Below the pieces are notes generated by a model. That model was not told where the DNA came from, did not search any database, and worked only from the letters and a program-made list of their open reading frames with translations. The position numbers were made by a program, and so were the translations under genes. Positions 12,058-24,013 of a DNA stretch of 64,000 nucleotides are shown here, piece after piece (positions within the stretch are counted from its first letter, which is position 1; each line of letters starts with the position of its first letter). The stretch is from Eleftheria terrae (GTDB taxonomy: Bacteria > Pseudomonadota > Gammaproteobacteria > Burkholderiales > Burkholderiaceae_C), in assembly GCF_030419005.1 (NCBI RefSeq), contig NZ_CP106951.1, positions 2,604,001 through 2,668,000 of the forward strand. The letters are read 5' to 3'.

Positions 12058-13184
12058 CAGACCACCAGCTCCCCGCTCCAGCGCAGGCATTGCTGGCGCA
12101 CCACCTCGGCCAGCAGGTGCTCCTTCTGCTGCGCCTGGCGGGCCCAGGTGGCGTCGTTGCCGAAGCGCTGCAGCTCGCCGCGCAGGTAGCGCATGGCGGC
12201 ATCGGCCTTGAGGTCGATGGCGTGCTGCTCGATCGCGGCCATGGTGGCCATGATGTCCTCGCGCAGGCTGCGGTGCTCGCCGGTCTTGGGATCGACGAAG
12301 GTGCCCTCGGGCCCGAAGCGGCAGGCCTGGAAGCGGTTGAAGGTGTAGACGAGGTAGTCGTCCTCGGCCAGCGGGAAGGGCTTTTCCTTGGTGAGCCAGC
12401 TGGCCACGCACTGGATGTAGGCGGCCAGCGCAGCGGCCTTCTCGATGGTGAGCGGCGTGTCGAGCACGCGCACCTCGATGGTCCCGAACTCGGGCTTGGG
12501 CCGGATGTCCCAGTAGAAGTCCTTCATGCTCTTGACCACGCCGGTGCGGGTCATCTTGCCGAAGAAGACGCCAAAGTCGTCCCAGGTTGTGACGAAGGGC
12601 GCCCGGCCCGACAAGGGGAAGGCGAACACCGAGTTCAGCCGTGCCGAATGAAAGCCGGTGTCGGTGCCCTGCACATACGGCGAGGAAGCCGACAGTGCGA
12701 TGAAGTGCGGGATGAAGCGCGACATGCCGTGCAGCAGCACCAGCGCCTCGTCGGGGCTCGGGCAGCCCACGTGCACGTGCTGGCCGAAGATGGTGAACTG
12801 CTTGGACAGGTAGCCGTACAGCTCCGAGAGCATGTGGAAGCGCGGCGTGTTGAAGATGCGGCGCTCGCTCCAGTCCTGGAAGGGATGGGTGCCACCGCCG
12901 GTCAGGCCGACGTTGAGCTTGCGGGCGCAGTCCACCAGGGCGCCGCGCAGTTCGGTCAGCTGGCCGAGGGCGTCGTCATGGCTGTAGCAGATGCCGGTGG
13001 ACAGCTCGATCATGCTGTCGGTCATCTCGGGTTTCACATCGCCGGGGATCTTCCGCTTGGCCATCAGCCGCAGCAGGTCGACCGCGCTCGGCGACAGGTC
13101 GTAGTCGTGGGTATTGACGATCCCCAGCTCCAGCTCGACGCCCAGGGTGAGCGGCTGCGAGGTGGCGAAGGCTTCCAAGGTCAT
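12057..13184 (-). CDS. YbdK family carboxylate-amine ligase (GCS2 type)
   Basis: A 375-residue ATP-grasp-like ligase of the glutamate-cysteine ligase 2 family. It starts with the family's [16 protein letters not shown] segment and contains the [10 protein letters not shown] and FGQHVHVG motifs that form the active site. E. coli YbdK has weak glutamate-cysteine ligase activity; the true substrate of the family is unsettled. The ATG at 13184 has AGGAG 9 bases upstream; the in-frame extension of about 150 codons lies inside the antiporter gene and is spurious. It is downstream of the antiporter by 23 bases and overlaps the VOC gene, so the three form an operon. Confidence 0.92.
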
Positions 13185-13207
13185 GCGATCAGTCTCCTGC
13201 GAAGGTC

Positions 13208-14437
13208 TCAGGTGCGGCGCGCGGCAATCTCGTGGGCGCTGCGCAATGCAGCGAGCACGGCCAGGGCGCCCAGCAGTTCCATGATGGCGATCGAACTCAG
13301 CGCGATGGGCGCCAGCTGGCCGGCAAAGCTGCCGTGCGAGGCCTGCAGGTCCGAGTACATCACCAGTGCGGTGGCCGACAGCGGCGTCAGGGCCAGGCTC
13401 ACGCCGATCCCCTGGCGCACCGACTGTCCGCTGAACCATCCGAGCGTCAGCACCGCAGTGGCCTTGGCCGCGGCCCGGGCGGCCATGGCGACGAGCGCGA
13501 TCAGCCCGCCGGTGGCCAGGCCTTCGACCGACCACGACGAACCGACGATGACGAACATCATCAGCACCAGCACACCACCGGCGGTGCCGAAGTGGCGCGG
13601 CCAGACCCAGGGCCGCTCGGTGGAATTGCGCAGCCACAGGCCCGCCATCAGCGGCATCAGCAGGGTCGACAGGCCGAACATCTTCGTCAGCGCCAGCGCC
13701 ATCGTGACCAGCCCCAGCAGCAGCAGCGTGGAGTTCTCATTGCGCAGGTCCAGGCCGCGTGCCACCCGGGCGACCGCAAAGCCGAGCACGCCGGCGATCA
13801 GGAAGGAGCCGGCGAACACGTACAAGGGGTGCACCACCGCCTGCACGGGGTTCTGCCCGGTGTCCAGGTCGAGCCAGGCCAGCAGCAGCTTGCTCGCGAA
13901 CACGCCATAGAGGGTATTGAGCGCGGCCAGCATCGTCACACGCTCGGTCACCTGGCCTTCGGCACCGAACTCGGACGCCACCCGCGAGATGACTGCGGGC
14001 GAGGCGGGCACCGCCAGCACCGCGACGGCGGCCGAGGACGAGGCGTCGAGGCCCAGGTAGCGCATCGCCAGGTAGACGACGGCGAAGGTCAGCACCGCCT
14101 CCGCCAGGCTGGTCACCAGCAGGAAGGGATTGGTGCGCAGCCAGCGCAGGTGCACCCGCGCGCCCAGCTCGAACAGCAGCAGCGCCAGCGCCAGATCGAC
14201 CACCAGCCGCACCGGGCCGGGGATGGTGCCGCTGGCGACGCCCCAGCCGCCGGCGGCGACCAGCATGCCGACCAGCGAATAGCCCACGATGCGTGGCAGC
14301 CCCAGGCGCCGGAACACCAGCTCGCCGATCAGCGCGCCGGCGATCAGTACCAGCGAAGATCCGAGCAGCGCATTGGGCCCCTCCCACGAAAAGGCAGCGC
14401 CGAGAAAGGACAGGGCCTGGGTCAGCTCGTCCACCAT
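13208..14437 (-). CDS. CPA2-type cation/proton antiporter
   Basis: A 409-residue polytopic inner-membrane protein of the Na+/H+ exchanger (KefB/GerN-like) domain family, with about 12 predicted helices and motifs such as [17 protein letters not shown] and [11 protein letters not shown]. It lacks the C-terminal TrkA-N domain of KefB/KefC, so it may be an ungated exchanger. GGAGGTG lies upstream of the ATG. It is first in an operon with the YbdK ligase and a VOC protein; the co-occurrence with glutathione-like enzymes recalls glutathione-gated Kef systems that protect against electrophiles, which is an inference from context. The transported ion is not determined. Confidence 0.85.
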
Positions 14438-14794
14438 GTCTTACACCTCCGTCTTGTCGTCACGTTGACGCCGCAGGGGGCGGCGCCTTGTTGTGCAGGC
14501 CGGACCGGAGCCCGGCGTGGGCAGGCTCTAGCCCCCCGCAAGCGCCCCCTTCCAGGGCGCGGCCGGATCTCATCGCGAACCGGCGCACCGTCCGGTAGCA
14601 AACGGAATGCCTAAAACGGTGCATGCCGGCGGCTTGCGAGCGGCCACGGGTCGCTGGCCGGCTCCGCACAGCGGCCTGCCCAAGGCAGCGATGCCGGTGT
14701 CCGTTCGTGACATGCATCACGTCCGGGCCGCAAGCAGCGGGCATTCTGCACCATGCGCCGCCCCCGCAGCGCCGAGGCGAGCGAGCGCCAACCG
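14438..14794. other. Intergenic region, no gene seen
   Basis: A GC-rich gap upstream of the antiporter. I see no credible ORF, tRNA or terminator here. The promoter of the antiporter operon should lie in it. Confidence 0.4.
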
Positions 14795-14822
14795 CAAAAA
14801 AAAGCCCCCGAAGGACGGGGGC
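14795..14822 (-). terminator. Orphan rho-independent terminator
   Basis: A 7-bp GC stem with a 5-base loop and nine T residues on the minus strand. It cannot serve the antiporter operon, which is transcribed away from it. Confidence 0.85.
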
Positions 14823-14873
14823 AAGGCTTCTTGGTCGCTGCGCAACACCGGGAACTCCGAGGCGCCGCGCGGC
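14795..14873 (-). ncRNA. Candidate orphan small RNA
   Basis: A strong intrinsic terminator on the minus strand (stem GCCCCCG, 5-base loop, CGGGGGC, then a T9 run at 14795-14803) has no minus-strand gene upstream of it: the nearest gene to the right is on the plus strand. A weak promoter-like -10 (TAGGAT, 14880-14885 on the minus strand) lies about 80 bases before the terminator. Together they suggest a transcript of roughly 80 nt with a foldable GC-rich 5' part. No known RNA family was recognised. The ends are approximate. Confidence 0.4.
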
Positions 14874-15084
14874 GGACCCATCCTAGCCTGAAACAGTTGT
14901 ACCGATGTATTAACCGTTTTGCCAGGCGGGCCGGCTGCACAGCGGGCCGCGAAGCCGCTTGCCGCCTGCCGTCAAGTGCCGTCCCTGGTTTGGGGGAGGA
15001 AGCGGCCCCCTGAACGGGTGAGCAGCACACGCTGTTCGCATTGAGCGGGCAAAATCGCCTGCTCAATCAGGGAAGGAGCTGCAA

Positions 15085-15282
15085 ATGAGCGACAAGATGA
15101 GCAAGCACGAGTGGATCGAGCGCTGCGCGGCCCGCATGCTGGCCCAGCAGCCCGCGCTGCAGAGCAGCGATGCCCTGCACCTGGCAGAGCAGGTCTGGCA
15201 AGAAGCAGGCAGCGGTCTCGACCCGGAACAGGCGGCCGACGATGAAGGCCGCTTCCGCCAGCCCGCCCTGGACGCGGCCTGA
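15085..15282 (+). CDS. Small hypothetical protein
   Basis: A 65-residue acidic protein, mostly helical by composition, with no recognised domain. It is supported by a strong ribosome site (AAGGAG, 6 bases before ATG) and ordinary codon use. It contains the segment HEWIERCAARML followed by LAEQVWQEAG. A GC-rich hairpin at 15299-15322 follows the stop and could end the transcript, although its T run is poor. It stands alone between the antiporter operon and the convergent cobN. The function is unknown. Confidence 0.6.
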   Translation: MSDKMSKHEWIERCAARMLAQQPALQSSDALHLAEQVWQEAGSGLDPEQAADDEGRFRQPALDAA

Positions 15283-15556
15283 GGCCGCCAAAGGGTTCGC
15301 CGGGCCGCCGTCGCGGCCCGGCGCTTTACATCCGACACAAAGCAACACCGCCCTTTTGCCTGCCCCGCGGCGGGGCGACTCGAACCAAGGTCTGATGGCT
15401 CCCGTGGCCGCCGCAGCGGCGCACCGGGGCCACTACGGCGGGGCAGCCCGCGCCTCTGCCGCGCCCGGTGCCACGCCGGCGGGCCCAGCTTCCCGCCGCG
15501 GCGGAGCTTGGCGGCGCGGCCTCCTCGCCTGTTCCCCCTTTCCTCCGTGTTCCCCT

Positions 15557-18500
15557 TCACCCGGCGGCGGCCGGGCGGCGCAGCTGATACAGGGCACCGG
15601 CGAGCAAGATGCCGAGCGCCAGGGCCGCCAGGAAGAGCTGAAGCAGCCGGTCCGCCACTGCCTGGCCGGCGCCCGGGGTCTCCAGCGGGCGCAACCGGAT
15701 GCCGGTTTGCAGGGCGGGTGACGGCGCCGCCTGCTGCGGCGTGGCGGCCGGCCGCTGTGCCACGCCGGCTGCAGGCGTGCCGCGCAGGGACGCGCCTGGC
15801 CGGGCGGGGCGCTGGGCCTGCCGCCGGGCCCAGTCCCGCACTTCGCGCGAAGCGTCGGGGCGGGGCGCCAGGCGGTCCAGCGTCTGCAACAGGCCGGCCA
15901 GCTCGCGCCGCGTGCCGGCATCCGGACGCCAATAGCCGTGGCGGTCGGCCTGGGCCAGGCGCTCCAGGGCCTGCGCGTAGGCCTGCGGATGGCTGCGCAG
16001 CCATTGCGGCAGTCCCAGCCGGTGACGGTCGCGCACCAGCACCTCGAAGAAGCCTTGCCAGTGGTCGTCGCGCACGCTGTGACTGTCGACCTGCTGCCAG
16101 CCCCAGGCGAACTGCAGCGCCTTCACCACCTGGAGGGTGCCGGCGTAGCCCTCGTCCCGCTGCGCGGCCAGCCAGCCGGGATGGAGGTAGCGGGACTGCA
16201 TTTCCTGCGCGATGCCTTGCGCGGCGGTCTGCGTGTGCAGGTCGCCGGCGTCGGCGAGCTGGTTGACATAGAGCGGCAGCGGCTCCGGACGGCCGGCGCT
16301 GCGGGCGGCTGCGGCCAGGCCGCCGAGGTACTGGAAGGGATCGTCCGACGTCATCATCCCGTAGAGGTGCGAGCTGCGTGACAGCAGCGCGGCATCGGCC
16401 CGGCGCAGCTGGGCCGCGAACGCACTCCGGCCGCTGCCCTGCTCGCCGGCCTCGTCCTGTGCCAGCGGTGCGCCATCGAGAAAGGGCTGGCTCATGCGTT
16501 GCAGGAACAGCTCGCCGAGCCGGCTGTCCTGCCGATCCAGGCCATCGGACTGCACCGCCTCCGCCAGGCCGGTGCCGTAGTCGCCCGGCGCATTGCCGAA
16601 CACCCGCACCCGGCCCAGCCGCGCAGCCACCGCCGCCGGCAGCCCGCGGCCGGCCAGCTCCCCGGCCACCGCCTGGCTGGCACTGGCCACCGGGCCCTCG
16701 GGTTCGGCGGCGCTGACCGCTGCGACCGCCTGGTCCACCAGGGCCATCAGCGCCGGGAACTGGTCGCGGTAGGAGCCGGTGACCGACAGCAGCACATCCA
16801 CCCGGGGCCGGCCGAGCTGGTCGGCGGGAATCACACGCACCGCGGTGGGCCGGCCCGCGGCGTCCCAGACCGGCTCGACGCCCAGCGCCACCAGCGCCTG
16901 TGCCTCCTGCACGCCCTGGTGGCGCAAGGTCTCGCCGGCCCACAGCGACAGGGCCAGCCGCCGTGGCGGGCGGCCGCCGTGGTCGCGCTGCCAGCCGGCC
17001 AGCCAGTCCTTGAACAGGGCCTGGGCCGCCTGCCAGGCTTGGCGGGTGGGCAGGCGGCTGGGGTCCAGGCCGGTGAGGTTGCGGCCGGTGGGCAGGCTGT
17101 CGACATTGCGCAGCGGATCACCGCCATAGGCGGCCGGCACGAACCGGCCGTCCAGAGCACGCAGCAGGCCGGGGATTTCGCCCTCGGTGGACAGGCGCTG
17201 CTCCAGCACCTGGGCGCGCAGCGCCAGCTGGTGCAGCGCGTCGCGATCGATCGGGCGGCGGGCGGCCCGGTTTGGCACCGGGCCCTCGGGCAGCGGCGGG
17301 CGCAGGTCGAGCGTGGCGGCGGCGTCGGCATCGCGCAGCGCCACCTCCAGCCAGCGGGCCGGGCGCGAGTCGGCCACTTCGGCATGGTCGATCAGGAAGG
17401 CTTCGTCAATGTCCTCGCCCAGGGCCTCGATCAGCGGCTGGCGCAGGGCCTGCAGGATGGTGAGCCGGCGCTCGGCCGACGGCGGCACCCGACCGAACAC
17501 CGCCAGGCCGCGGGGCTGCGCGTCCTGCGCCAGCCGGTCCAGCCAGGGGTGCAGCAGCTCGAGGAAGCCGGCGAAGTCGGCCTGGATGCGCTCGGCGCTC
17601 CAGCCCAGGTCGCGGTGCAAGCCGTGCTCGACGAACTGCGCCAGCAGTGCGGCTTCCAGCGATCGCCTGGTCGGCCCGTGGCTGGCGGTCTCCCACTCAT
17701 GCATCAGCTCGTGCATGCGGGCCATTCGCACCTGGAAGCCGGCCGGCGCGAAGGACGGCGTGCGGTGGCTGATCATGGTGGCACGGCCGCGGCGCTTGGC
17801 CGTCAGGGCCTCGCCGAGGTTGTCGACGATGTAGGGGTAGATCACCGGCACGTCGCCCAGCGGCAGCAGTGCGTCGTCTTGCACGGCGAGTGCGCGCAGC
17901 TTGCCGTTGGCCCATTCCTGCGTCCCGTGCGTGCCGAAGTGGACCAGGGCGTGCGCCTCGCGCGCCCACAGGTAGACCGCAAGGTAATGATGCGACAGCG
18001 GCAGGCGGCTGCGGTGCGAGAACACGCGCTCGCCAGGCCGCCGGGTTTCCTCGCGGGGCGGCTGCGGCAGCACGCTGAGCCGGCCCACCTCCAGCCGTGG
18101 GATGACGAACACCGGCTCGCCGCCATGGCGCAGCACGAAGCGGCTGCGCTCGGGCGGCCCCCACTGGGCCAGGATGCGTTCGCGCACGGCGGCGTCCAGC
18201 GTGTCGAACCAGGCGCGGTAGCGCGCCAGCGGCAGGGCGGCTGCCGCGCCGCTGTCGAGCAGGCCCTGCAGGTCGGCCCCTTCGTAGTAGGCGGCGAGCA
18301 GCGGCGACAGCTGCCGTATCCATTCCGCCTCGGTGAGGCGGTGCGTGCGGTAGCCGGCTTCGGCGAGCGCCTGGCTGACCGTCTCGAGGCTGCGCGGCAC
18401 ATTGAGGAAGGAGGCGCCGAAGTTGCTCGCGCCGGCGGGGTAGTTGTAGACCATTGCGACCAGCCGCTTGTCGGCAGGGGCCGTGTCGCGCAGGGCCAGC

Positions 18501-19588
18501 AGGCGCTGCAGCTTGGCGATGACGGCGGCGGCCTGCGGCTCGATCAGGCGCCAGCCCTCCCGGGCATCCCCCCGGGCCGTCACCAGCATCGGATCGACCG
18601 TGCCGGCGGCCTCGGGCTGGGCCAGGTAGAAGGGCAGTTCGGCCAGCCCCAGGCCGGTGGCGTCGGCCTGCCAGGCGCCGCTGTCGCCGCTGCGGTAGGG
18701 CAGTGTGGCCAGCACCGGCACGTCCCAGCGCTCGAACAGCGGCTGCAGCGCGGCGCCGGGCGTGAGCAGCTGGTGGGTGACGATTGCCCGGGCCTGCAGG
18801 CGTCCATCCACCTCGAGCAGCGCCGCCAGCGAGGCGGCGTCCAGCGACTGGCTGAAGGCCGCATAGGCAGCGAGGCCAGCCAATTCGAACATGGCCAGCC
18901 AGCGATCCAGCCAGGCACTGCTGCCGTCCACCAGGTGATGGCGGTGAACCAGCAGCACGACCGCGGGGCGGCCGGCCAGCCCGGCATCGCTGGCCTGCCA
19001 CAACGCCAGCTCGGCGGCATCGCTGAACAGCCGGGGCGCGCGGGGATGGTAGAGCCCGCGGGCCGGCCAGGGCTCGGGCGGTGGCAGCGCGGGCACCGGC
19101 TGCCCGGCCGACACGGCAGCCGCCAGCTGCAGCGCCTGGCTCCAGGCCCGCGGTCCGCCCGCGCGCAGGTAGGCGGCGATGCGGGCGGCTGCATCGTCGC
19201 CCGCGGCGGCATCGGTGGCTGCCAGGCGGCCGGGCCGGCGCGCGGCGTGGCCGGCGAGCTCGGCGCCGAAGGCGGCGTCCAGCCGCGCCCGTGCCGTCGG
19301 GTGCGGCGCGTCGATCCAGACCCAGTCGGCCAGTGCCAGCGCCTGCTGCAGGGCTTGCCGGGGCAAGCGGTCGTCACCGGCCTGCAGCGGCAACTGCACG
19401 TGCTGCCACTCGAAACCGGCCTGCTCGGCCAGCTCGGCCAGCCGGGCGCTGCGGGTGGCCGGCGTCAGGTCGGTGCTCAGCCACAGCAGCCGGGGCGCGG
19501 CCTGCACTGCGGCGGCCCACAGCAGCCATGCGCACCAGGCCCATGCCAGCCAGCCGGGTCGCGGGCGCGTGCCGGCGCGCGGCCTCAG
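15557..19588 (-). CDS. cobN: CobN-like chelatase, probably exported and membrane-anchored
   Basis: A 1343-residue protein of the CobN/ChlH large chelatase family, which inserts Co2+ or Mg2+ into tetrapyrrole rings. Family motifs include AMVYNYPAGASNFGASFLN (about residue 380) and HFGTHGTQEWANGK (about 550). No ATG, GTG or TTG precedes a GTG at 19507, but the frame stays open. From a CTG at 19588 it encodes a basic n-region, a Trp/Ala/Leu-rich core and an AVQA cleavage site, a convincing signal peptide. GGGAG lies 6 bases before this CTG, which overlaps the TGA of the DUF2149 gene. One membrane helix is at about 1316-1337. The topology implies a periplasmic chelatase tied to the inner membrane, unlike cytoplasmic CobN. 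It is third in a cobalamin-riboswitch operon with no CobS/CobT partner, beside a proton-channel pair. The metal, substrate and CTG start are inferences. Confidence 0.85.
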   Translation of the reverse strand: MRPRAGTRPRPGWLAWAWCAWLLWAAAVQAAPRLLWLSTDLTPATRSARLAELAEQAGFEWQHVQLPLQAGDDRLPRQALQQALALADWVWIDAPHPTARARLDAAFGAELAGHAARRPGRLAATDAAAGDDAAARIAAYLRAGGPRAWSQALQLAAAVSAGQPVPALPPPEPWPARGLYHPRAPRLFSDAAELALWQASDAGLAGRPAVVLLVHRHHLVDGSSAWLDRWLAMFELAGLAAYAAFSQSLDAASLAALLEVDGRLQARAIVTHQLLTPGAALQPLFERWDVPVLATLPYRSGDSGAWQADATGLGLAELPFYLAQPEAAGTVDPMLVTARGDAREGWRLIEPQAAAVIAKLQRLLALRDTAPADKRLVAMVYNYPAGASNFGASFLNVPRSLETVSQALAEAGYRTHRLTEAEWIRQLSPLLAAYYEGADLQGLLDSGAAAALPLARYRAWFDTLDAAVRERILAQWGPPERSRFVLRHGGEPVFVIPRLEVGRLSVLPQPPREETRRPGERVFSHRSRLPLSHHYLAVYLWAREAHALVHFGTHGTQEWANGKLRALAVQDDALLPLGDVPVIYPYIVDNLGEALTAKRRGRATMISHRTPSFAPAGFQVRMARMHELMHEWETASHGPTRRSLEAALLAQFVEHGLHRDLGWSAERIQADFAGFLELLHPWLDRLAQDAQPRGLAVFGRVPPSAERRLTILQALRQPLIEALGEDIDEAFLIDHAEVADSRPARWLEVALRDADAAATLDLRPPLPEGPVPNRAARRPIDRDALHQLALRAQVLEQRLSTEGEIPGLLRALDGRFVPAAYGGDPLRNVDSLPTGRNLTGLDPSRLPTRQAWQAAQALFKDWLAGWQRDHGGRPPRRLALSLWAGETLRHQGVQEAQALVALGVEPVWDAAGRPTAVRVIPADQLGRPRVDVLLSVTGSYRDQFPALMALVDQAVAAVSAAEPEGPVASASQAVAGELAGRGLPAAVAARLGRVRVFGNAPGDYGTGLAEAVQSDGLDRQDSRLGELFLQRMSQPFLDGAPLAQDEAGEQGSGRSAFAAQLRRADAALLSRSSHLYGMMTSDDPFQYLGGLAAAARSAGRPEPLPLYVNQLADAGDLHTQTAAQGIAQEMQSRYLHPGWLAAQRDEGYAGTLQVVKALQFAWGWQQVDSHSVRDDHWQGFFEVLVRDRHRLGLPQWLRSHPQAYAQALERLAQADRHGYWRPDAGTRRELAGLLQTLDRLAPRPDASREVRDWARRQAQRPARPGASLRGTPAAGVAQRPAATPQQAAPSPALQTGIRLRPLETPGAGQAVADRLLQLFLAALALGILLAGALYQLRRPAAAG

Positions 19589-19923
19589 GGTCGGCTCCCG
19601 GAAGCCGCCGGCTCGGGCACGTACACCACGCTGCCGTCCTGCAGGCGGTAGGCGATGCCAGTGCGCACGCCGTTGCCGGCGCTGGCACTGCCATCGCCGC
19701 GCAGCCGCAGCTCGCGGCCGTGCTCGCGCACGACGATTTCCATGTCGGGCCGGCCGGCGTTGCGGATGACGGTCACCGTCTCGCCGGCCTCGCGCTCGGC
19801 CCTCAGGGTCAGCGCCACCAGCAGCGCTGCGACCACGACGAGGAAGACGTCCACCAGGTTGACGGCCGACAGCATCGGGTCGTCATCGTCGTCAGCCAGC
19901 GCGTCGAGATGGCGGTGTCGCAT
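19585..19923 (-). CDS. DUF2149 (ExbD/TolR-like) membrane protein
   Basis: A 112-residue DUF2149 protein with a short acidic cytoplasmic N terminus, one membrane helix at about residues 22-41 and a periplasmic C-terminal domain. The helix begins NLVDVFLVV, with an aspartate at residue 25 placed like the proton-carrying Asp of ExbD, TolR and MotB. With the preceding TolQ/ExbB-like gene (8 bases away) it would form a proton-driven stator pair. It is co-transcribed with the CobN-like chelatase, whose proposed CTG start overlaps this stop codon. The ExbD comparison rests on topology and the Asp position, not on a search. Confidence 0.8.
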   Translation of the reverse strand: MRHRHLDALADDDDDPMLSAVNLVDVFLVVVAALLVALTLRAEREAGETVTVIRNAGRPDMEIVVREHGRELRLRGDGSASAGNGVRTGIAYRLQDGSVVYVPEPAASGSRP

Positions 19924-19931
19924 GGCCGGCC

Positions 19932-20399
19932 TCACTGCGCCAGGCCACGGGCCTGCCGCACCGCATGCAGCTCGGCCAGCAGCCAGCGCCGCCGCTGTGA
20001 ATGCACGGCCAGCGCGATGGCGGCTGCGGCCAGCGCCAGCACCACGCCCGAGAAGGCATTGCCGAAGCCGAGCAGGGTGCGTCCGCCATCGCCCGAGGCG
20101 ACCCCGGCCAGGGCCGGCCCGAGCGGAATCATGGTGGCGATGAGGCCGAGCAGCGGCGCGATGCGCGCCAGCAGGCGCAGCGGCTCGAGCTGCTGCAGCG
20201 CGGCGAGCTCCAGCGCGTCGAGGCCGATGTGGTCCGCCACCGGCAGGGCACGCCAGCCGGGACGGCGCCAGCGTTGCCAAGCCTCGGCCAGCATGCGTCC
20301 GAGCGCCCACAGCGCGGCGGCGAACGTCGCCAGCACGCCGAGCGAGACGGGCCACAGCAGCCATTGCGCCAGCTGCGCCATGCCGGTTTCGATCATCAT
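19932..20399 (-). CDS. MotA/TolQ/ExbB-type proton channel protein
   Basis: A 155-residue inner-membrane protein with three hydrophobic segments (about residues 10-33, 76-96 and 113-133). The family signature lies in ARIAPLLGLIATMIPLGPAL and in FGNAFSGVVLALAAAAIAL, matching the two pore helices of ExbB/TolQ. It is first in the operon with DUF2149 and CobN and lies 115 bases after the cobalamin riboswitch. A GAGGGA site lies 5 bases before the first of two ATGs. It most likely supplies proton-motive energy to an envelope process connected with corrinoids or cobalt. No TonB or TonB-dependent receptor gene is in the window. Confidence 0.85.
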   Translation of the reverse strand: MMIETGMAQLAQWLLWPVSLGVLATFAAALWALGRMLAEAWQRWRRPGWRALPVADHIGLDALELAALQQLEPLRLLARIAPLLGLIATMIPLGPALAGVASGDGGRTLLGFGNAFSGVVLALAAAAIALAVHSQRRRWLLAELHAVRQARGLAQ

Positions 20400-20514
20400 C
20401 GCGGTCCCTCGGTGTCTGCAGGAAGGCGAGCCGGCCGGCTCGCGGGGAGGCACCCGGCCGCATCCCCGCCGCCGGGCACAGCGCGGCGCGCTCGCGCGCG
20501 GCCCGCGTGTTGGC

Positions 20515-20710
20515 CGGTCTCCGGGCTGGCGGCACAGCGCCCTGGCCCTTCCCGGCCGCAGGCGGCCAGTGGGCATCGGACAGGCACTGCAAGGGGCGAG
20601 GCCCCCTGGCTTCCGCTTACCGTTGCGGGGGCAGCTCAGCTTGCAGGCCGCCCAGGCGGCCCGGCGCTGATTCCCGTTTCACGGTGCCGGCAGATCGCCG
20701 GCACGCGCAC
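20515..20710 (-). promoter_or_regulatory. Cobalamin (B12) riboswitch
   Basis: On the minus strand, upstream of the proton-channel gene, the conserved elements occur in order: CCGTGAAACGGGAATC, the core GCTGCCCCCGCAACGGTAA (20617-20637), and the B12-box-like GCCAGCCCGGAGACCGGCC (about 20513-20532). Between them are paired GC-rich arms. Binding of adenosylcobalamin normally shuts off the downstream genes, so the operon should be on when B12 is short. The exact ends are approximate. The 115 bases between it and the first ATG contain the expression platform, which I did not resolve. Confidence 0.88.
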
Positions 20711-20879: not shown

Positions 20880-23200
<2,321 letters not shown>

Positions 23201-23204
<4 letters not shown>

Positions 23205-24013
23205 GTGCCGACCCGGCCCTGCCGGCGCCGATCGGCGAGTTGCCGGTGGTCCGCAGCACGCCGTCGGGCCGCCAGGCGGCGCTCGACCAGGTGGCTGCCG
23301 AGGTGCCGGTGGCCCTGAGCCTCAACGGCATCAGCCATGCAGTGATGATGGCCACGCCGGCCGACATCGAGGACTTTGCGCTCGGCTTTGCGTTGTCGGA
23401 GGGGCTGATCGGTTCGCCGGCCCAGTGCTATGGCATCGAGGTGCGGGCGGTGGACGCCGGCGTCGACGTGCAGCTGCAGCTCGCCAGCCGCGCCTTCGAG
23501 GCCCTGAAGCAGCGCCGCCGGGCCTTCGAAGGCCGCACCGGCTGCGGCGTGTGCGGTGTGGAGAGCCTGGCCGCGCTGGACCTGCAGCCCGAGCCACTGC
23601 CCCCCGGCCGGGCCCTGCCGGCGCTCGGCCCCGCCGAGGTGTCGCGGGCCTTTCACGAGCTGGCGGGACGCCAGCCGCTGAACGCGCAGAGCGGCGCCTG
23701 CCATGCAGCCGGCTGGGCCGCAGCCGACGGCCGCCTGCTCGAGGTGGCCGAGGATGTCGGCCGCCATAACGCGCTCGACAAGCTGATCGGCCGGCTGGCG
23801 CGCACCGGCCGGCTGGCCGAGCCGGGCTTTGCCATCGTCTCCAGCCGCGCCAGCTACGAGCTGGTGCGCAAGTGCGCCCGGCTGCAGCTGCCGGCGCTGG
23901 CGGCCATCTCCGCGCCCACCACGCTGGCGGTGGACATCGCCCGTCGCGCCGGCCTGCGGCTGTTCGGTTTCTGCCGCGCGGACAGCACGGTCGAATACAC
24001 CGCCTCCAGCTGA
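23201..24013 (+). CDS. fdhD: Formate dehydrogenase accessory sulfurtransferase FdhD
   Basis: A 270-residue sulfurtransferase that moves sulfur from a cysteine desulfurase to the molybdenum cofactor of formate dehydrogenase-like enzymes. The catalytic loop TGCGVCG gives Cys115 and Cys118, and the EVAEDVGRHNALDKLIG segment binds the cofactor. It starts with a GTG whose last bases overlap the stop of the YdeP gene (GTGA), so the two are translationally coupled and the client is almost certainly that enzyme. Upstream in-frame codons inside the YdeP gene are spurious. Confidence 0.95.

Follow-up and report, generated by a model that had tools for sequence, protein, structure and literature searches.

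What takes the place of the partner ATPases in a CobN relative that carries export signals? This question is raised by an operon of Eleftheria terrae within a 64,000-nucleotide stretch of the genome (the window; positions 2,604,001 to 2,668,000 of contig NZ_CP106951.1, assembly GCF_030419005.1). All parts of the operon lie on the minus strand. As a preliminary description of this DNA had stated, they follow one another in the order cobalamin riboswitch, ExbB/TolQ-like stator gene, DUF2149 gene and gene of a CobN-family chelatase. Our best explanation is an exported chelatase that is driven by its own proton motor and works on the metal centre of corrinoids, a reading to which we give an even chance. 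New here is the observation that across CobN-family proteins the stator is linked to export and the AAA+ ATPase to the cytoplasm.

This linkage was examined in other genomes, where the window protein belongs to clade W and further exported relatives form clades X, Y and P. Of the 88 exported CobN-like proteins, 83 (82 if orientation is taken strictly) have both a stator ring gene and a DUF2149 gene no more than 12 kb away, which bears out the conserved three-gene linkage for which the preliminary description had proposed a search. Mostly the two genes directly adjoin the chelatase gene; at some P loci a receptor gene or a few kb of DNA intervene. Near cytoplasmic CobN relatives neither gene was seen (0/28, comprising 0/9 in a first set and 0/19 in a reverse test). 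For the reverse test 20 chelatase loci were taken from genomes without a DUF2149 match, and a C-terminal helix was counted from a score of 1.5. At 19 of them the protein showed no such helix (maximum 1.0) and no signal peptide by eye, the start of L179 being uncertain, and neither stator gene was present; 14 of these loci had a chlI-like gene in view and five were BchH-like by motif. The exception, L186 from genome G560, is exported; its contig measures 5.2 kb and ends nearby. The same genome is the only one among 18 with an NF004644-type protein over cut-off in which DUF2149 is missing. In the order sample 26 of 27 genomes with DUF2149 carried a CobN-family gene, compared with 90 of 399 overall (p ~1e-17, only indicative as the genomes are related), and in the class sample all 20 did. 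Genome searches for DUF2149 and PF02514 copies took in 31 of the 38 named loci. One genome is represented twice (L106 and L149), and the counts for clade W, for exported proteins and for riboswitches therefore each contain one duplicate. Since export pairs closely with the stator and the cytoplasm with ATPases, the exported enzymes appear to have swapped their power source.

The chelatase gene occupies 15557..19588 (minus strand) and encodes 1343 amino acids if translation starts at CTG 19588, a CobN/HmuS-family protein of the BtuS type in which PF02514 spans residues 139-1225 (826.4 bits, cut-off 24.5). Among ATG, GTG and TTG codons the first in frame is GTG 19507, which lies just before the cleavage site and would cost the protein nearly all of its signal peptide. 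We nevertheless accept the CTG as the probable start, because it shares bases with the stop codon of DUF2149 (CTGA) and follows a GGGAG, and because 34 of 37 W-clade members begin at ATG, GTG or TTG and are hydrophobic at the N-terminus. Given this start, on which it depends, the predicted signal peptide is MRPRAGTRPRPGWLAWAWCAWLLWAAAVQA, followed by AP (19499..19588, minus strand; cleavage site judged by eye). At the other end a hydrophobic helix of residues 1315-1333 (15590..15646, minus strand) is followed by Arg-Arg, which fits a membrane anchor with its tail inside. The export and anchoring signals suspected beforehand were thus both found, and a C-terminal hydrophobic segment is present in all 88 exported relatives.

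In its family membership the protein stands between two known types. The FGTHG motif with His554 places it in the CobN/ChlH/HmuS superfamily, and it scores 1430.9 bits with NF004644, an NCBIfam model named CobN (cut-off 1248), whereas it reaches only 410 bits with the equivalog model cobalto_cobN, TIGR02257 (cut-off 822). Canonical CobN is cytoplasmic and encoded with CobS/CobT or ChlI/ChlD, neither of which applies here. The features of HmuS, namely export, membrane segments at both ends (the N-terminal one given the CTG start) and HmuU/HmuV partners, are present, but the HmuS pair His1209/Glu1212 is replaced by Asp1083/Gln1086. This comparison with HmuS (9d26) covered its segments 283-648 and 930-1373. 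The catalytic His538 of HmuS, His554 in the window protein, is kept in 97/97 compared proteins and in 88/88 of the exported ones. At the positions of His1209 and Glu1212, Asp/Gln was found in 37/37 W proteins and 3/3 canonical CobN, Asp/Asp in 18/18 X proteins and His/Glu in 7/29 P proteins. By this comparison the metal-site pair of clade W is CobN-like and not HmuS-like, a point that is new for the B12 clades.

These residues bear on the view that the protein is a de-chelatase of the HmuS sort, removing the metal of heme or some other porphyrin, with its B12 switching incidental. Superfamily, similar membrane topology, identical partners and the retained catalytic His speak for it, but the Asp/Gln and Asp/Asp pairs of clades W and X, the control by a cobalamin riboswitch and the B12 genes around the loci speak against it. 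Moreover, HmuS lay outside every clade of our set and did not group with the window clade, although its placement in the tree is uncertain. We consider such a de-chelatase unlikely. The tree (MAFFT and FastTree) held 97 of 102 proteins, CobN fragments below 1000 amino acids being left out; the sequences of PA1923 and of BtuS are not among them. Tree and topology signals agree with the published description of BtuS as a CobN-like protein, set apart from CobN and ChlH, that is predicted to lie in the periplasm attached to the membrane.

The P proteins with the HmuS-like His/Glu pair are those of L070, L071, L094, L162, L099, L100 and L104. In an exploratory inspection, in which 10 of the 29 P loci could be judged, Zur-like boxes were seen upstream at L100 and L104, both of the His/Glu type, and Fur-like boxes at L090 and L096. 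Together, boxes and metal-site pairs are hinting at separate P groups for different metals.

The second partner in the question is the putative motor. The stator gene (19932..20399, minus strand) encodes a protein of 155 amino acids with three hydrophobic helices and an invariant Thr89 (codon 20133-20135) that itself has no Pfam match at E<=0.001. Four of five related stators tested (L085, L078, L083 and L066, of clades X, Y and P) passed the cut-off of MotA_ExbB (PF01618), and that of L131, from the window's own clade, stayed below it (14.0 bits, cut-off 22.9). Because these relatives match MotA_ExbB and all of the proteins, including that of the window, align along their full length, we take the 155-residue protein as a ring subunit of the ExbB/TolQ type. 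The DUF2149 gene (19585..19923, minus strand; PF09919, 74.3 bits) encodes an HmuV-like and ExbD-like protein of 112 amino acids with one helix, in which Asn22 and Asp25 (codon 19849-19851) were found; the position given earlier for the Asp proved exact. The helix Asp and the ring Thr are working, essential residues of ExbB/ExbD, and the window pair has both, the Asp in the partner helix and the Thr in ring helix 2. Among relatives the helix Asn and Asp are kept in 96/96 DUF2149 sequences and the PxxGLxxT motif, with Thr at the ExbB T148 position, in 95/95 ring proteins. These counts include four weak loci (L084, L112, L113 and L115), and separate alignments from which the four were left out (50 DUF2149 and 43 ring proteins) agree on the kept residues. 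L112 and L113 were rejected as true stators of the trio, as gene reading shows plain ExbB/ExbD operons there; L115 is of the same genus and has the same weak score, and at L084 no genes were called. Helix 3 of ExbB has a second polar residue, T181; of the aligned rows inspected, those of clades X and Y retain it and those of W and P do not.

How this pair relates to known motors can be seen from the 5:2 motors ExbB-ExbD, TolQ-TolR and MotA-MotB (PMC9389320, PMC12505986; like most papers named here, cited from partial texts). The three-helix ring with the T148-position Thr and the single-helix partner with Asp25 are common to them, whereas the ring protein of the window has only 155 residues, its partner has a different small periplasmic domain (DUF2149), and a chelatase takes the place of TonB, TolA or the flagellum. 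The word 'chelatase' does not occur in PMC12505986. ExbB is larger than 155 amino acids.

Does the chelatase simply belong to de novo B12 synthesis? The window genome (G000; 7.03 Mb, four contigs) holds six cobalamin riboswitches and two PF02514 proteins. The other PF02514 gene lies behind a riboswitch of its own, in the order HupE-like (by eye), CobW, CobN, ChlI-like and VWA protein. Its product reaches 1539 bits with TIGR02257 (cut-off 822); CobW and the VWA domain are over their cut-offs, and the ChlI-like protein gives strong matches to chelatase-ATPase models without reaching their cut-offs. The absence of CobS/CobT, part of the preliminary description, thus stands for the operon, which has neither CobS/CobT nor ChlI/ChlD genes, and fails for the organism, in which ChlI/ChlD-like partners adjoin the other CobN. 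Since the genome holds this separate set, the window operon supplements a cytoplasmic chelatase. An ordinary cobaltochelatase of de novo synthesis could be argued from the NCBIfam name CobN and from the corrin-ring marker CbiC, which the window genome carries. Against this stand the export signals, the second, canonical CobN and the lack of CbiC in most relatives; on these grounds we rejected this role as hardly credible. CbiC is present in 15 of 77 genomes with the trio and missing from 24 of the 27 named W genomes searched (present in G767, G768 and G776). None of the PF02514 copies in those 27 genomes is a canonical CobN; they are of W type, and seven genomes have BchH-like or P-type copies as well. 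Among W genomes, canonical CobN does occur in the window genome, which also has CbiC, and in G715 (L161).

The regulation points to B12. The aptamer of the window operon (RF00174; 20509..20714, minus strand) scores 50.8 bits (gathering score 31.5) and is one of the six in the genome, in line with the riboswitch announced upstream of the trio. Only the stator pair stands between it and the chelatase gene, and no additional gene was seen. In clade W a riboswitch lies upstream in 23 of the 24 loci that are not cut off, 22 by a same-strand motif and L106, cut at the end of its stretch, by Rfam. The other 13 of 37 W loci are cut off upstream, among them L125, whose contig begins inside CobN. These results support B12 control of the trio. 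Within 12 kb and on either strand the motif was found at 10/18 X, 1/3 Y and 0/29 P loci. Rfam recognised riboswitches in all seven chosen loci (four W, three X), in three of seven further W loci (the four without one being L117, L136 and L102, all cut off upstream, and L103, which is not) and in 0/9 P loci.

The neighbouring genes point the same way. Many W loci are corrinoid-salvage operons with riboswitch, btuB, cobU, btuF, btuC, btuD, cobB, stator, DUF2149 and CobN genes, followed by cobO or a second receptor. CobU, CobB and CobO exceeded NCBIfam cut-offs in the reference genes, and BtuB, BtuF, BtuC and BtuD were named from best or near-best models below cut-off. At least one of cobU, cobB, cobO, btuF or btuC lies near 33/37 W, 14/18 X, 0/29 P and 0/3 Y loci. 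This setting could also be read as that of a non-catalytic relay that binds corrinoid or metal between BtuB and BtuF and is pushed by the stator. The position of the chelatase among btuB, btuF, btuC and btuD-like genes in most W operons agrees with a relay, as does the non-substrate heme that HmuS binds between head and neck (PMC12583661). A pure relay is weakened by the catalytic His, which it would not need and which is nevertheless kept in 88/88 exported proteins, and we regard it as quite improbable.

A further alternative concerns the client of the motor. The pair could be an accessory ExbB/ExbD that powers TonB and an outer-membrane receptor, BtuB or another, with the chelatase an independent periplasmic enzyme. 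This is the published view for HmuU/V in Bacteroides (PMC10100974) and has been suggested for PA1924 of P. aeruginosa (PMC4542158), and a receptor gene lies within 12 kb of 20/29 P, 27/37 W, 9/18 X and 3/3 Y loci. In the window, however, the operon has no receptor and no TonB gene. TonB is encoded elsewhere in the genome (four TonB_C matches, three over cut-off), as are five ExbD-family genes, none of them near the operon. With three reference receptors as queries, none was detected near L116, L121 and L150, each with >21 kb in view. Moreover, DUF2149 follows the chelatase closely across genomes. Both families are also represented in the genome of Methanosarcina acetivorans, which has no outer membrane. 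This archaeal point draws on genome-level presence in a control genome, because no archaeal name was found among the matches listed in the DUF2149 alignment search (120 of 2280). Taken together, we consider that service to TonB is possible but doubtful.

The gene content itself is not new, as it is of the HmuS/BtuS kind with HmuU/HmuV partners (PMC12583661, PMC10100974, PMC6460266). The system hmuYRSTUV of Bacteroidota likewise combines a CobN-family chelatase that has N- and C-terminal membrane segments and the FGTHG His with ExbB-like HmuU and the DUF2149 protein HmuV (PMC12583661, PMC10100974, PMC13227078); HmuU and HmuV were noted to resemble ExbB and ExbD (PMC10100974). It differs in that it responds to iron, includes the hemophore HmuY and HmuT and acts on heme (PMC12583661, PMC10100974, PMC13227078). 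HmuS itself has a Met79/His254 heme site and a methionine-rich insertion; its pair His1209/Glu1212 corresponds to Asp/Gln in the window protein, whose operon is under a B12 riboswitch. HmuS was described as a membrane-bound, NADH-dependent heme de-chelatase with 1-2 turnovers of the recombinant protein, and HmuU/V were drawn as powering HmuR (PMC12583661). The N- and C-terminal membrane helices of HmuS are treated in PMC13227078, whose authors left an influence of HmuT, HmuU and HmuV on its activity possible; the hmu gene products are also the subject of PMC10434189.

BtuS was set apart from CobN and ChlH as a third CobN type, following Rodionov et al. 2003, and a multi-protein complex was imagined for it (PMC6460266); Methanosarcina barkeri has two BtuS (PMC10846266). 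Like the window protein it is CobN-like, predicted periplasmic and membrane-anchored, and in B. fragilis an Hmu-like operon lies behind a B12 riboswitch (PMC6460266, PMC10100974), but it was studied in Bacteroides for heme iron. The BtuS texts consulted describe neither the proteobacterial B12-salvage clades and their stator residues nor a split from CobN that is linked to ATPases. The cluster PA1922-PA1925 of Pseudomonas aeruginosa similarly unites a TonB receptor with CobN-like, ExbD-annotated and DUF2149 proteins, but it is Zur-regulated and induced by zinc shortage (PMC4542158, PMC9431628). CobN-CobS-CobT and ChlH-ChlI-ChlD share the PF02514 protein, and canonical CobN (3/3) the Asp/Gln pair, whereas these systems are cytoplasmic and driven by AAA+ ATPases; in 28/28 examined, neither export signals nor stator genes were seen.

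How might the machine work? Gene content, topology signals, linkage, regulation and the invariant proton-motor residues were established by computation; the coupling of motor and chelatase, the substrate and the direction of the reaction are what we infer from them. In this model B12 shortage would cause the riboswitch to release the operon for an inner-membrane machine. The CobN/HmuS-superfamily chelatase would be exported, tethered by its C-terminal helix, and would act on the periplasmic side of the membrane, its target being the metal centre of a corrinoid or of a related tetrapyrrole. The ExbB-like ring and the DUF2149 axle with Asp25 would form a dedicated proton motor of the 5:2 type that replaces the AAA+ ATPases CobS/CobT or ChlI/ChlD of cytoplasmic chelatases. 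By moving domains and releasing the product it would allow the chelatase to turn over. The stall of HmuS after 1-2 turnovers would fit a missing energised release step, although its authors list other causes too (PMC12583661). In the B12 clades the likeliest task would be to load cobalt into corrinoids that lack a metal or carry the wrong one, ahead of import by BtuFCD.

Direction is the weakest step of this mechanism. The proton-powered exchange of cobalt put forward in the preliminary description is one candidate reaction. An intact corrin gives up its cobalt only with great difficulty. Removal is also unlikely because 24 of the 27 named W-clade genomes lack CbiC and such cells cannot rebuild the ring; insertion or correction of the metal fits better. 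CobB and CobO flank the cobalt step of the aerobic pathway, and insertion would therefore suit a locus that has them as neighbours. The treatment of cobalt in B12 can be found in PMC7689651. In its widest form the proposal divides class I chelatases into two power classes, cytoplasmic with AAA+ ATPases and exported with a dedicated proton motor, with the machine of the B12 clades inserting cobalt periplasmically into scavenged corrinoids in bacteria that cannot build the ring. This version we put forward tentatively, as its chance of being right is well short of even. That the motor drives the chelatase itself is a new reading; no statement to this effect was found in our searches of open-licence papers or in the texts consulted.

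Several observations weigh against a proton-driven chelatase. Five exported proteins have no stator genes nearby. Two of them, L118 and L125, are at contig ends, but L128 from Acidovorax and L139 from Giesbergeria are CobN genes of B12 operons, with DUF2149 elsewhere in both genomes, and the genome of exported L160 likewise has DUF2149 elsewhere. Conversely, the stator pairs of L105 and L170 adjoin another exported protein with no CobN nearby, and G424, from which L105 comes, is the only DUF2149 genome of the order sample without any CobN-family gene; the motor may have another client there. L103, a W locus in full view, has no riboswitch. Purified HmuS, given the NADH on which it depends, performs its 1-2 turnovers in the absence of HmuU/V, so that a single reaction can proceed without the motor (PMC12583661). 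The published models assign HmuU/V to TonB-driven import (PMC10100974). Finally, substrate and direction were deduced from genome context and general chemistry.

Some loci deserve description in their own right. At L160 (G523 C92) the reading frame 12224-16270 encodes the exported, anchored CobN-like protein directly upstream of a canonical set of CobN, ChlI-like and ChlD-like genes. The pairs without CobN (L105:7468-9175 and L170:8192-9747, the latter a second pair in Azohydromonas) retain the helix Asp, and their surroundings comprise the gene of the exported protein, which has no NCBIfam match, and two-component genes. In P0117, a protein from a metagenome-assembled genome (MAG) of Xylophilus ampelinus, DUF2149 and CobN share one open frame of 1684 amino acids. 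We did not accept it as proof of contact between the two proteins, a lost stop codon being as likely as a fusion, and give it little weight because the inner hydrophobic stretch remains and the source is a MAG.

In the window a molybdopterin oxidoreductase gene of the FdhF/YdeP family and FdhD lie divergent to the operon (20880-24013, plus strand), and similar-looking genes are in the same place in the nearest named relative (L116:4451-7575, minus strand). The best-scoring riboswitch of the genome (92.8 bits) belongs to L011:4931-7469 (C2:681930-684468, minus strand) and lies ~150 nt upstream of an acyl-CoA dehydrogenase gene. The closest NCBIfam model of that protein is acryloyl-CoA reductase, whose cut-off it does not reach, and there is also a gene for a 3-hydroxyisobutyrate dehydrogenase, which does exceed its cut-off; possibly these genes provide a B12-independent route when methylmalonyl-CoA mutase is without its cofactor. 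Another riboswitch, at C2:910417, precedes genes read by eye as those of a TonB receptor-like and a PepSY-type membrane protein (L013:4818-8659; C2:910818-914659), a possible second uptake system for corrinoid or cobalt.

The trio is real and conserved and has so far been little described; it is of a known kind, and the new reading of what powers it can be tested. A chelatase that seems to be exported together with a proton motor of its own points to a way in which such enzymes could run without ATP. Should the motor indeed serve the chelatase, the question of what stands in for the ATPases in exported relatives of CobN would be answered, and the halt of recombinant HmuS at 1-2 turnovers might be explained. 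The enzyme would then join the short list of tasks of 5:2 motors, which comprises import, envelope upkeep, motility and secretion, and would to our knowledge be the first metal-insertion enzyme powered directly by proton motive force. Many genes annotated as 'CobN' would receive a role other than B12 synthesis. Moreover, bacteria that do not produce B12 could prepare corrinoids outside the cytoplasm, which would bear on the sharing of B12 in microbial communities.

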